From Microcaldota archaeon (GTDB taxonomy: Archaea; Micrarchaeota; Micrarchaeia; Micrarchaeales; CABMGC01): a stretch of 51,564 nt of DNA. Below are positions 183 to 5,727 of this stretch, one piece after another (position 1 is the stretch's first letter; each line of letters starts with the position of its first letter). A program made the position numbers and the translations under genes. The notes below the pieces were generated by a model, which was not told the origin of the DNA, ran no database searches, and was given only the letters and a program-made list of their open reading frames with translations. The stretch spans positions 1-51,564 of the forward strand of contig JAGWGI010000006.1 in NCBI GenBank assembly GCA_028867435.1. The letters are read 5' to 3'.

Positions 183-749
183 CTATTTAGCCTTATTGCG
201 CTTTTTGAACTTGGCCACTATCATCTCTGCTGCCAGCTCTGCGCTGATTGCATCTGTATCTATCTCCAAATCAAACGGCCGCATATCCTCTCCGAAGTTT
301 ATGCCGTAGAGTTCCTTGTAGATTCTATGGTTTTCTTCTTCCCTTACCTTTGCCACTTTTGCGCTCTCCTCTGGAGTTGTGTGGTCCCTTTTTGCCATCC
401 TCTGGGCCCTCTTCTCTTTCGAAGCAGAGAGCCAGCACTTGAAGCCTACCTTTGAGAGCCAGGGTGCTGTGTAGCTTGTGACCACGACGTCACCCTCCTC
501 TATCTCCTTGAGCATACGCTTGTCTGTCTGGTTGTCAAGTTCCGGGTTGCCCTCCCTCTCGCTAGAGAATCTTATGCCCTCATCTGTGTCCCACCAATCA
601 TCTCCAGACATCTTGTACCCAAGCTCTGCTGCCATCTCTTTGAGTATGTCAGTTCCCCCAAGGTGCCTTATGTGCAGCTTTTTTGCGACAAGGGCTGCGA
701 CAGTGGTTTTCCCTGAGGCAGGCAGGCCGCAGATTATTATTGCTTCCAT
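183..749 (-). CDS. cmk: Archaeal cytidylate kinase
   Basis: N-terminal P-loop GLPASGKTT, small AAA-type NMP kinase; next to L14e/L34e as in many archaea. Confidence 0.8.
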   Translation of the reverse strand: MEAIIICGLPASGKTTVAALVAKKLHIRHLGGTDILKEMAAELGYKMSGDDWWDTDEGIRFSSEREGNPELDNQTDKRMLKEIEEGDVVVTSYTAPWLSKVGFKCWLSASKEKRAQRMAKRDHTTPEESAKVAKVREEENHRIYKELYGINFGEDMRPFDLEIDTDAISAELAAEMIVAKFKKRNKAK

Positions 750-761
750 GAGGATCTAACC

Positions 762-1088
762 TCAGTGCGCGATCATCTGGAGTACATACTGCTTCTGCCG
801 TATCCCGATCGAGTTTATCTTCATCTCACCGTTCTCTATCCTTGAGGCAAGCTTTATCACTTCGCCCGTACAGCTAGAGCAGAGCACTCCGCCGAACTTG
901 CGGGAGTTGGACTTGAGGGATTTTCCCTTTGCAGTCTTGCTGATTGAGATGCCGTTTAATTCTGCTTTGCAGATTGCGCAGTGAGGGAAGGAGTTCTTCC
1001 TTCTCGCATAATGTATCGTATGTCTCTTTGAAGGGGTTACCCTAGATAACCTCCTGTAGCTTCTGGATCTATACATTGGCCTTGGCAA
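762..1088 (-). CDS. rpl34e: Ribosomal protein L34e
   Basis: MPRPMYRSRSYRR... with two CxxC pairs (CAIC, CSSC); TTG start at 1088 gives the usual MPRP N-terminus. Confidence 0.85.
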   Translation of the reverse strand: MPRPMYRSRSYRRLSRVTPSKRHTIHYARRKNSFPHCAICKAELNGISISKTAKGKSLKSNSRKFGGVLCSSCTGEVIKLASRIENGEMKINSIGIRQKQYVLQMIAH

Positions 1089-1142
1089 TTTTAACACCTG
1101 TAAAAAGTAATTGTATCATCTTTGTTTTTCAAGTATAAAAGG

Positions 1143-1625
1143 CTATTGCTGAAGCTTCGGCTGCGGACTGGACTCTGCCTGAGGCTGCGCCTTTGCTGCC
1201 GCCTTCTTCTTGTTTCTGGTAGTGAAGATCATGGAGAGCACGAAGCCGATTATGAACGAAACTACTATGAAAAGGGTCTTGTAGCTCAGCCCGAACGGGA
1301 GCACCAGCGCTGCTGCAGAGACTGCAAAAGCTGCCGGAAGCGCGTAGTAATAGACAATTATGAAGAGGGGGAAGATGACAAACATCGGCTTTAGCGAGTA
1401 TTTCATGCTCTGGGACGCCATGGACATCACCTCCTTTTGCTTTGCCGCAAGCTCCTCCTTGTTAGGGCTTGGAGTCTTGGATAGCTCCATTAGCTCCTTG
1501 GACTTTACATTTATGCTGTTTTGCAGCTCCCAGTACTTTCCGCTCAAAAGCTTCTGCTGCACAAATACTGAGAACAGGGCATAGATGGCTCCCAATATTA
1601 TTATCTCTATGATTATCGTCTGCAA
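1143..1625 (-). CDS. DUF106/EMC3-TMCO1-like (Oxa1 superfamily) membrane protein
   Basis: N-terminal TM, amphipathic coiled coil, then TM pair; located between L34e and adenylate kinase as in archaeal clusters. Confidence 0.7.
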   Translation of the reverse strand: MQTIIIEIIILGAIYALFSVFVQQKLLSGKYWELQNSINVKSKELMELSKTPSPNKEELAAKQKEVMSMASQSMKYSLKPMFVIFPLFIIVYYYALPAAFAVSAAALVLPFGLSYKTLFIVVSFIIGFVLSMIFTTRNKKKAAAKAQPQAESSPQPKLQQ

Positions 1626-2226: not shown

Positions 2227-3879
2227 TTACTCCATGCCGGGCATGCCGCCTCCAGGAGGCATTCCCCCGCCGCCAGGGCCCTTGCCCTTTGAGCTGATCA
2301 TGTCGTCAATCCTAAGGATTATCTCGGCTGCCTCGCTTGCGCTTGATATCGCCTGCGACTTCACCTTGAGCGGCTCTATGACGCCGAGCTTCTCCATGTC
2401 GCTTATCTGGTTGTGGTAGATGTCCACTCCGAAAATCTTGCCTGCCTTGTCCTTGTGCTTGTTCCTCAGCTGCACCAGGGTGTCTATCGAGTCCATGCCT
2501 GCGCTCTCTGCGAGCGTCTTTGGAACCACTTCTATGGCGTCGGCGAACGCCTGGATGGCGAGCTGCTCCTTTCCGCCCACGTCGCTTGAATAGTTCCTCA
2601 GGCCGTTTGCTATGTCGATCTCTATGCTACCTCCGCCTATCACGTACTTGCCGACTTCTACAGCGCTTGAGAGCGCCCCTATCACGTCGTTTAGAGATCT
2701 CTCGACCTCGTTTACCACCTGCGGCGTTGAGCCCCGTGCGAATATTGTGACGCTCTTTGGATCCTTGCACTTTTCTACAAAGACCATCTGCTCGCCTCCG
2801 ACCTTCTTCTCCTCCACAATTCCGGCGAACCCTAGGTCTGCGCCGGTTAGGTCGTCTAGGCTGGTGACCAGCCTTGCGCCTGTTGCCTTTGAGAGCTTCT
2901 CCATGTCGCTCTTCTTAACCCTCCTTACCGCGATTACCCCTGCCTTTGCGAGATAGTGCTGGGCCACGTCGTCTATGCCCTTTTGCACGAATATCACGTT
3001 TGCCCCGGACTTGGCGACCTTGTCAGCCATTGTCTTGAGCATATTCTCCTCCTGCGTGAGGAATGCCTGCATCTGGTCAGGCGAGGTTATCTCGATTCTT
3101 GCGTCTGTCTCGGTCTTCTCTATCTCGAGGGCGACGTCAAGTATTGCTATCTTGGCGTCCTTGACACTCTTTGGCATGCCGGGATGCGAGATTTCCTTGT
3201 CCACAAGGACCCCGTTGATGAACTCCGTATCCTCTATGCTGCCTCCCTCCTTCTTCTCTAGCTTTATGAAGTCGTGGTCTATAGTGACCTTGCCTGCCGA
3301 GGTTATGGCAACTTGCTTTATGGCGCTAATTGCCAGCTCTGCAAGGTGCTTTTTTGTGCTGTCGCTGCCGATGTTCTTGGACGCCATCGCAATTAGGGCT
3401 ATTCGCTCCAGCTTGCCTGTGTCGTTGATTGTGAGGCTTGTGGAGTGCTCGTCTAGGATCTTCTTTGCCTCCTCTGCTGCCATCTTGTAGCCCTTAACTA
3501 TTATCGTAGGGTGTATGCCCTGCTCTATCAGGGTGCCTGCTGCCTTGAGTAGCTCCCCTGCCATTATCACTGCCGTGGTTGTGCCGTCTCCCACCTCCTT
3601 GTCCTGGGTCTTTGCGATCTCCACCATGATCCTTGCAACTGGGTGCTCAACGTTCATTTCCTCGAGTATCGTCGCGCCGTCGTTGGTGATGACTATGTCC
3701 CCAAGCTCGCTCACAAGCATCTTGTCCATGCCCTTTGGCCCAAGAGTGGTCTTGACCACTCCGGCAACCGCATAAGCGACCGCGATGTTGGTCCTCTGCG
3801 CGTCCCTCCCGAGAAGCCTTGATGCCCCCTCAGGCAAAATTAGGTACTGTTGTCCTCCAGATAGTTGATTCTCAGCCAT
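2227..3879 (-). CDS. thsA: Thermosome subunit (group II chaperonin)
   Basis: [26 protein letters not shown] motifs and [16 protein letters not shown]-terminal tail. Confidence 0.97.
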
Positions 3880-4096
3880 TGTATCACTTTTTATAAATAG
3901 AATGCCCTATTCCCTCGAAAAGGAAACTTAGTTTATTCGCTTTATACAATGAGTTTATGCATGCAAAATATACTTAAAGCTTTCTGGATTTGTGGAAAAA
4001 CGGTGCAAAAATCAGGGGAAGAGATGCCATTTTTGCCTCAAAGATTCCCTCTAGGGTGGTATTTAAAGCCTTTTGTTTAGTAATGATATTGATTTG

Positions 4097-4444
4097 ATGG
4101 TGCAGCAGGAAACGGATGGGGGTAAGAAGGCCAAGATGGAAGTAAAAAAGGACGTGGTCAGGGCGCTCAACCTCAAGCCCAAAATAAACATACAGAACAT
4201 CGTGGTCAGCGCAGACCTTCACGCGACCATAGACCTATACGCGCTTTCAAAGAACATAAAGGAAGTGGACTACGAGCCAGAGCAGTTCCCTGGAGCGATC
4301 TTCAGGATCAAGGAGCCAAGCGCAGTAATCATACTTTTCAAGAACGGCAAGCTGATATGCACAGGCTCAAACACAGAGGCGAACATAAAGAAGGTGCTGG
4401 ATTACGCGACCAAGATAATCTCAAAGTATGTAATAAACCAGTGA
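4097..4444 (+). CDS. tbp: TATA-box-binding-protein homologue with a single TBP repeat
   Basis: KINIQNIVVSADLHATIDL...YEPEQFPGAIFRIKEPSAVIILFKNGKLICTGSNTEANIKKVLDYATKII matches one TBP half-repeat; ends after one repeat. TATA-like TATTTAAAG about 35 nt upstream of the ATG. Confidence 0.88.
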   Translation: MVQQETDGGKKAKMEVKKDVVRALNLKPKINIQNIVVSADLHATIDLYALSKNIKEVDYEPEQFPGAIFRIKEPSAVIILFKNGKLICTGSNTEANIKKVLDYATKIISKYVINQ

Positions 4445-4515: not shown

Positions 4516-5727
4516 ATGAGGGTGCTGATAGTCGACCTAGGCTCTAGGCTGAATAGATTCGGAGGGCAGGCACGAGTGGCTGCCGAGATGTACAGGAAAC
4601 TCAGGCCGCGTTTTGAGACTTATTATCTAGGGTATGAGACGGAGTTTTTGGGAGAGGAGAAGCGCACCATAATGCTCGGAAGGGGGATGTTCAATCTCTC
4701 GCTAAGGCGCAACAAGCTCAGCGAGATGCGCATCTTCAGGATTGCATACAACATGCTTGTGGTCAGGAGGCTCGGTGGCCTTGGAATGAGCAAGAAGGAG
4801 CTGCTGCGCAGGGTGGGGGAAGTGAGGCCGGAGGTGGTAATAGCTAATTCTATCCAAGACATAGTGCTGCTTCAATACCTAAAAAGGCACAACTTCAGGT
4901 TCAAGTCGATATACGTAGACCATGGGAGCCTCTCCACCAGCATAGGGGGGTACTTCTCAAGGGAAGGGATACCACTCACGATAGGGTCTGGCATAAATGC
5001 GCACAGCGTCGATTCTGCGCTAAGGAAGTTCTTCAACTTCTTTGACGTAAATGTTGCACTCAATAGCAATCAATTGAGCAGCATGAAGAAGTTCACGAAC
5101 AAGGCAGTGTGCATACTAAATGGAGTTGACATAAAGGTAAGAAGGGATATGGGCAGAATCAATGCCTTCAAAAAGAAGTACGGCTTAGACAAAGGCAACT
5201 TTGTTATACTCTATCTTGGCAGGCTATTTGACAGGCAGAAGAACGTGAGCACTTTGATAAGGGCCTTCAAGGGGATGCAAGGCGATTCTTTGAGGCTACT
5301 AATAGTCGGAGAAGGACCATCATTAGAGGAATACCGAGAACTCGCAGGCGCGGACAAGAGGATAATCATAGACACAAAGACCAAGGGGGATCCGGTAACC
5401 TTTGTGTACCAGGTCTCAGACCTCTTTGTGCTCCCGTCGCACTGGGAAGGGTTCAGCCTTACCGTTATAGAGGGAGCTGTGCACCACCTGCCTCTTCTGC
5501 TCTCAGACCAGGCATGTGTGCCAGATCTGAGGAAAAGCGGGGTTGGCAAGATCTCCTCCTTTGACGCCGACGATGCCGATGGGCTCAGGAAGCTGATGCT
5601 CAGATATCACAATGACAAGGGTATGAGGAAGAGGGCGATCGCAGTTTCCCAAAGAATAGCAAAGAAATTCACCCTTAGAAGGATGCTTGAGCAGTATTCC
5701 AAGCTGATAAATAGCATCAGCGATTAA
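4516..5727 (+). CDS. GT4-family glycosyltransferase
   Basis: YLGRLFDRQKNVSTLIRAF...LLIVGEGPSLEEY...LFVLPSHWEGFSLTVIEG motifs. Confidence 0.9.
   Translation: MRVLIVDLGSRLNRFGGQARVAAEMYRKLRPRFETYYLGYETEFLGEEKRTIMLGRGMFNLSLRRNKLSEMRIFRIAYNMLVVRRLGGLGMSKKELLRRVGEVRPEVVIANSIQDIVLLQYLKRHNFRFKSIYVDHGSLSTSIGGYFSREGIPLTIGSGINAHSVDSALRKFFNFFDVNVALNSNQLSSMKKFTNKAVCILNGVDIKVRRDMGRINAFKKKYGLDKGNFVILYLGRLFDRQKNVSTLIRAFKGMQGDSLRLLIVGEGPSLEEYRELAGADKRIIIDTKTKGDPVTFVYQVSDLFVLPSHWEGFSLTVIEGAVHHLPLLLSDQACVPDLRKSGVGKISSFDADDADGLRKLMLRYHNDKGMRKRAIAVSQRIAKKFTLRRMLEQYSKLINSISD

Follow-up and report, generated by a model that had tools for sequence, protein, structure and literature searches.

The TATA-binding protein (TBP) finds gene starts in archaea and eukaryotes, and is described as the two-lobe product of one ancient duplication. 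The roles of its intercalating Phe residues, its central-strand Asn and its TFB-contact stirrup are known from solved TBP structures. Archaeal TBP has been treated as a two-lobe protein, with single-lobe forms confined to a hypothetical ancestor or to proteins of the RNase HIII type (PMC7221094, PMC4910066, PMC7289017, PMC12917281), and the internal duplication has been treated as a single event (PMC4910066). Genome papers on DPANN archaea record the presence of TBP but say nothing of its size (PMC8407392, PMC8204110), and the string 'TATA-b' is absent from the paper on Candidatus Mancarchaeum acidiphilum Mia14, a member of the Micrarchaeota (PMC5498576). In the literature searched, which lay outside subscription papers and preprints, no report was found of a single-lobe TBP as general factor.

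Here we analyse such a gene, TBP-B, in the window (the whole stretch of 51,564 nucleotides under study), together with its paralogue TBP-A elsewhere in the same genome. The organism and Mia14 belong to one order, which we take to be Micrarchaeales. With canonical TBP (PF00352, two lobes, about 180 aa) the two proteins share the lobe fold, the profile, the pair of Phe residues, the central-strand Asn, the YEPEQFPG motif and the company of a canonical TFB in the genome; they differ from it in having one lobe per chain (115 aa in B and 106 aa in A), in presumably needing a partner chain, and in belonging to a lobe clan of their own. The two-lobe TBPs of other Micrarchaeota resemble them in the locus beside rpl21e (the ribosomal protein L21e gene), in the lobe clan and in the signature residues, but join two similar lobes in one chain. 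The N-domain of RNase HIII (DUF3378) is another solitary TBP-like, nucleic-acid-binding lobe; however, it is fused to an RNase H domain and is without the TATA and TFB determinants. A single lobe is likewise the arrangement placed before the internal duplication in the hypothetical ancestor of TBP (PMC4910066, PMC7221094, PMC12917281), whereas the lobes of the Micrarchaeota are living proteins and are probably secondarily single-lobe. What we report is a TBP lobe that takes the place of TBP and has one lobe where the criterion is two; it is real, conserved and under selection.

The TBP-B gene and the TBP complement of its genome

The features of the locus are the following:

2227..3879, minus strand: divergently oriented neighbour of TBP-B, encoding a thermosome (group II chaperonin) (ORF, identified by eye)
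4062..4067, plus strand: probable TBP-B promoter, TTTAAA, a palindromic TATA-like box (sequence)
4097..4444, plus strand: TBP-B (paralogue B), single-lobe TATA-binding protein, 115 aa (ORF; Pfam TBP, 88 bits)
4097..4180, plus strand: N-terminal head, residues 1-28, basic and lysine-rich, predicted to be mostly disordered (sequence and pLDDT)
4181..4429, plus strand: single TBP lobe, residues 29-111 (PF00352 profile positions 1-85 of 85; AlphaFold core)
4271..4294, plus strand: YEPEQFPG stirrup, residues 59-66, with the intercalating Phe64 and the TFB-contact motif, identical to the canonical C-lobe consensus (column conservation)
4334..4351, plus strand: LFKNGK, residues 80-85, in which Phe81 is the second intercalating Phe (column frequencies)
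4516..5727, plus strand: putative glycosyltransferase gene, downstream of TBP-B (ORF, family assigned by eye)

The TBP-B frame opens with ATG and is closed by TGA. An in-frame TTG at 4073 is a possible alternative start, but the ATG at 4097 is favoured because TTTAAA lies 30 nt upstream of it, and TATA-like cores in the window genome were observed to peak at about -35 to -25 relative to start codons. One PF00352 match was obtained, spanning the entire 85-position profile with 88 bits (cut-off 22.9 bits). The ORF and this single match agree with the preliminary description, which had read about 115 aa from ATG 4097 with a Lys-rich head of about 28 aa, one repeat and a stop, and no lobe was seen in the gap at 3880-4096, which had been said to have no room for a first repeat. 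In the AlphaFold model pLDDT was below 50 at residues 1-5 and 7-15 and about 95 in the core of the lobe, and 77-81 residues of the model were superposed by Foldseek on a single lobe of TBPs of known structure, with a fit of 0.8-1.0 Å. Two other identities were considered and rejected: DUF3378 scored 20.8 bits, under its cut-off of 27, and the TBP-like domain of an OGG1-type glycosylase was matched only at E 0.2, while the 115-aa protein has no other domain.

Column frequencies showed F64, F81 and N34 to be invariant in the lobes of relatives, which bears out the earlier claim that both intercalating Phe residues, of EQFPG and of ILFKNGK, are kept. YEPEQFPG is 97-100% conserved in TBP-A, TBP-B and the other single lobes; among canonical TBPs it is 100% conserved in the C lobe and varies in the N lobe. 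The dN/dS ratio was 0.01-0.07 between TBP-B orthologues, with dS saturated for distant pairs, and 0.03-0.08 between TBP-A orthologues; orthologues of TBP-B were present at 31 loci in two families. TBP-B is neither a chance ORF nor a decaying gene, and is under strong purifying selection.

A PF00352 search of the window genome, a 47-contig draft, returned exactly two matches, both single-lobe and on different contigs. The second match, TBP-A (contig C2:29138-29383, minus strand), has one lobe that scores 102 bits. A two-lobe TBP was not found in the genome by PF00352 or lineage-profile searches, and with the lineage-specific profile at E <= 10 the only addition was an 11.8-bit fragment within a frame of 1009 aa. 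A and B are the only TBP lobes of this genome, which also encodes TFB. The search for a second TBP, as the preliminary description had proposed, gave a divided outcome in that no two-lobe protein exists in the genome and the window gene is not its sole lobe: it is the accessory paralogue B, and TBP-A is the conserved core copy. Elsewhere in the window genome a tandem pair of additional, divergent TFB-like genes was noted (G000:C28 20456-22079). G001 and G002 also have additional TFB-like frames, one of which is 1035 aa long and contains several TFIIB repeats.

A thermosome homologue adjoins TBP-B at 12 of the 21 B loci in the window's family and at 0/10 in family f2, and the glycosyltransferase is not conserved in this position (2/21 loci). 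TBP-A of the window genome adjoins rpl21e, as do 34 of the 40 TBP-A loci in the order (26/30 and 8/10). Elsewhere in the phylum this adjacency was observed at 9/21 loci of other single-lobe TBPs and at 18/19 loci of two-lobe TBPs; since rpl21e is common to TBP-A and two-lobe TBP loci, these are the same locus with a changed lobe number. At one TBP-A locus (L001), TBP-A spans 1459-1779 and is followed 16 nt downstream, on the same strand, by a gene for a reverse transcriptase (RVT_1, 66.8 bits; 564-1442, minus strand), with no template/variable repeat pair evident nearby.

Distribution of one-lobe and two-lobe TBPs

In the 60 genomes of the order, TBP matches were single-lobe and lay in frames of about 94-170 aa, except at a contig edge in G020; one frame of 274 aa still holds one lobe. 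The closed genome of Mia14 (one contig) encodes one TBP-A, one TBP-B and no two-lobe TBP. The chromosome of Mia14 is circular and 952,257 bp long, and the organism has been grown in co-culture with Cuniculiplasma (PMC5498576). Relatives within the order, closed genomes included, carry single-lobe genes where an intact two-lobe gene might have been expected, and no second repeat is hidden by a frameshift or an assembly error, the frames being intact and the arrangement recurring in one-contig genomes. The G020 case (L024, at the end of contig C39) consists of a partial first lobe joined through a linker to a complete second one, and is possibly a very recent A-A fusion; it was set aside, as at the end of the contig the partial lobe repeats about 100 nt almost exactly and may reflect an assembly overlap.

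Two surveys were made of the phylum, one covering 246 genomes and the other 164 genomes at least 85% complete, most of the genomes being MAGs. Around 15 families were single-lobe (f1, f2, f4, f5, f6, f7, f9, f11, f13, f15, f16, f17, f18, f21 and f24) and eleven were two-lobe (f3, f8, f10, f12, f14, f19, f22, f23, f26, f27 and f28), the latter call being based on lobes read directly in eight families and on frame lengths or paired matches in the rest. Family f1 has two TBP copies in 21/51 genomes and one in 30/51, and single-lobe families outside the window's order usually have one gene. The whole genome holds one lobe in G006 (97% complete, 3 contigs), G032 (one contig), and G013, G027 and G064 (100% complete), and this holds at E <= 10 with the lineage profile. 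TFIIB-type repeats were found in 38 of 40 genomes, typically as two (cyclin) repeats in one frame of 340-400 aa, which is a canonical TFB. Against the ten NCBIfam two-lobe TBP models that were matched, these single-lobe proteins score 67-99 bits, compared with cut-offs of 181-347, and these missed cut-offs may be the reason why the pattern was overlooked.

Several single observations were made in the course of the surveys. Up to three unlinked single-lobe TBP genes occur in a near-complete genome of family f7 (G074:C1 448260, 893905 and 1045410; also G082). An 8.4-kb contig of a single-lobe genome (L033, G163:C43) carries a canonical two-lobe TBP whose lobes group with canonical ones, and which is probably a contaminant or a transfer. 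A Methanomassiliicoccaceae genome (G261:C29 219328-219865) has two adjacent TBP lobes in separate frames (138 and 112 aa), possibly a broken or split extra TBP, as intact two-lobe copies are also present. A TBP relative is encoded on two viral contigs of IMG/VR (L376 and L377), where a 471-nt match shows 44% identity to the window lobe.

Lobe trees and the history of the gene

All 81 canonical outgroup frames, taken from Asgard, TACK and Euryarchaeota, were two-lobe, with a between-lobe identity of 38-60% (mean 47%). The two lobes of two-lobe Micrarchaeota TBPs are 52-79% identical to each other. The lobe tree (82 columns) is unrooted and cannot tell pre-duplication from derived lobes; in it all Micrarchaeota lobes, whether single, N or C, grouped in a clan of their own (100/100), separate from the N and C lobes of canonical TBPs, and within this clan the B clade was recovered at 100/100 and A+B at 99/99. 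Retention of the original N/C relation in the Micrarchaeota was rejected (AU p 0.031; log-likelihood 49.6 lower), and a single duplication within the phylum yielding all its N and C lobes was compatible with the data (p 0.166). Assigning the phylum's lobes to a canonical N or C origin was tried and given up: in both lobe trees they were placed beside some canonical N lobes, but holding the canonical N lobes together as one clade fitted as well or slightly better.

In a tree of RNA polymerase subunits (30 genomes, 1455 columns, two distant outgroups), 12/12 two-lobe genomes formed one clade (100/100) nested in single-lobe families, and a single-lobe group branched first. Placing the single-lobe families in one clade was rejected (AU p 0.00036). 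The Rpb2-domain frame was about 600-640 aa long in nearly all sampled Micrarchaeota (a split subunit B) and 1111 aa in G109. Rpb1-domain frames measured 1133-1423 aa in f5, f9, f11, f15, f21 and f24 compared with about 775-940 aa elsewhere, which suggests an A'/A'' fusion in the deepest clade.

On the best reading of these sequences, the phylum descends from an ancestor whose single-lobe TBP would have worked as a homodimer; two copies were later joined again in one clade, and a gene duplication in the window's order gave A and B. A canonical TBP would thus have been reduced to one lobe in the phylum ancestor, re-doubled in place in one clade, and duplicated into A and B at the base of the window's order. 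The two-lobe TBPs of the nested clade are best read as re-doubled from the phylum's own lobe. The preliminary description had offered an 'ancestral-like or reductively evolved' TBP; the single lobe does appear ancestral for the phylum, with the re-doubling coming later, but a relic from before the canonical duplication is not favoured.

A proposed saddle of two chains and its alternatives

TBP-A and TBP-B are the sole TBPs of their genome, both single-lobe, and we consider it probable that the phylum was ancestrally single-lobe with one clade re-doubled, and that the lobes pair as a TATA-binding saddle captured by TFB. Lobe pairing, TATA binding and TFB recruitment are inferred from sequence. 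Two lobes would associate non-covalently across the dyad of the saddle to give a TBP-sized saddle, symmetric in the case of A:A and nearly symmetric in the case of A:B. Such a saddle would bend the TATA box, and one TFB would capture one of the two equivalent stirrups. With two identical stirrups, direction would be set by BRE and TFB, from which the direction of transcription is known to arise in canonical archaea (PMC7289017). We favour a dimer because a single one-lobe gene is the entire TBP supply of many genomes, because the promoter motif of G006, which has only TBP-A, is a full-length TATA box (TTTAAATA / TTTATAAA), and because relatives re-joined exactly two lobes, which gives Rosetta-stone support. 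Homodimerisation is best argued for TBP-A, the sole TBP of many relatives, and B may act in an A:B heterodimer, which, where B exists, may restore in trans the asymmetry between the N and C halves that canonical TBP has. The earlier proposal of a half-TBP that needs to dimerise appears partly supported, having survived each refutation named for it beforehand (a hidden second repeat, a two-lobe TBP elsewhere in the genome and an intact two-lobe gene in relatives).

Promoter motifs were searched in 96-194 upstream regions per genome. The window genome gave a near-palindromic TATA motif (AAGATTTATAAATCTT), and G006 also gave a near-palindromic motif. A symmetric motif model captured 0.87-0.94 of the log-likelihood gain of the free model in these two genomes (widths 14 and 16); the corresponding share was 0.52-0.66 for Mia14 and, for a relative with two-lobe TBP, 0.61-0.84. 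Symmetry within sites was not above that of shuffled halves, a two-orientation model fitted better than the symmetric one, and canonical control genomes gave no clear TATA box. As a sign of a dimeric TBP, the symmetry of the promoters is compatible only.

Other explanations of the one-lobe state concern how it arose. That the other lobe is simply missing from the assembly or frameshifted might be suspected from the draft state of the window genome, but this is practically out of the question, as the same arrangement occurs with intact frames in one-contig genomes, tens of genera and two loci, and the closed genome of Mia14 refutes it. Gene fission, by which a canonical TBP would have been split into A (its N lobe) and B (its C lobe), the two forming an obligate A:B heterodimer, draws on several likenesses. 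The two-lobe NCBIfam models align B to their C half in 9/10 cases, in keeping with the likeness to the C-terminal half noted earlier (matches to solved chains being mixed), and A to their N half in 7/10; residues 33 (E/Q) and 77 (A/V) are N-like in A and C-like in B; and a tree placing B with canonical C lobes, at a log-likelihood 25 lower, falls short of formal rejection (AU p 0.128). We nevertheless judge fission very unlikely. A and B form one clade inside the phylum lobe clan, both carry the phylum's A67, K82 and N83 (canonical TBPs have L, R or G, and S), and fission cannot explain the one-gene state of deep-branching families and of many genera in the window's family. Since A and B group within the phylum clan and share these three residues, their likeness to canonical N and C lobes looks like convergence on the N:C asymmetry in trans. 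It is also unlikely, if a little less so, that the phylum was ancestrally two-lobe, with lobes homogenised by gene conversion and single-lobe forms arising by several independent losses. Gene conversion could produce the same lobe similarity, and a lobe tree with all single-lobe sequences in one clade was not rejected (p 0.43); against this, the two-lobe families are one nested clade, single-lobe TBPs occupy the deepest branch, a tree in which the original N/C relation persists was rejected, and several losses are needed compared with one loss and one re-doubling. Nanoarchaeum equitans has a two-lobe TBP. This speaks against, and we give little credence to, the idea that the Micrarchaeota lobe descends from a homodimeric TBP preceding the duplication, which would then have occurred twice, in other archaea and inside the phylum; it would require the canonical duplication to be later than the split of the Micrarchaeota, and secondary loss of a lobe is the likelier course.

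The other alternatives concern how the lobes work. A single lobe might occupy half a TATA box as a monomer, with TFB supplying the remainder, and in its favour the sequence falls short of proving dimerisation, and TFB is needed for the stability of many complexes of archaeal TBP with DNA (PMC7289017). We find this unlikely, as the motif of G006 is a full-length box with no half-site, and the nested clade re-joined exactly two lobes at approximately canonical spacing. It is possible, though we hold this tentatively, that TBP-B is a specialised or regulatory TBP, serving alternative promoters or inhibiting by heterodimerisation, and that the A homodimer is the sole general factor. B has a long branch, is specific to the window's order, and is missing from the whole of genera g3, g10, g24 and g25 in family f1, which keep A; yet its DNA-contact and stirrup residues are kept under strong purifying selection, and nearly all f2 genomes retain it. 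This reading concerns the role of B, and is compatible with a saddle of paired lobes as the main explanation.

Many families of one phylum run on a single TBP lobe and one clade has probably re-joined two, so that the origin of the saddle would have been replayed in nature. This would make it testable in living cells how a symmetric dimer chooses direction, what benefit comes from duplication and N/C asymmetry, and whether a homodimeric ancestor would have been viable.
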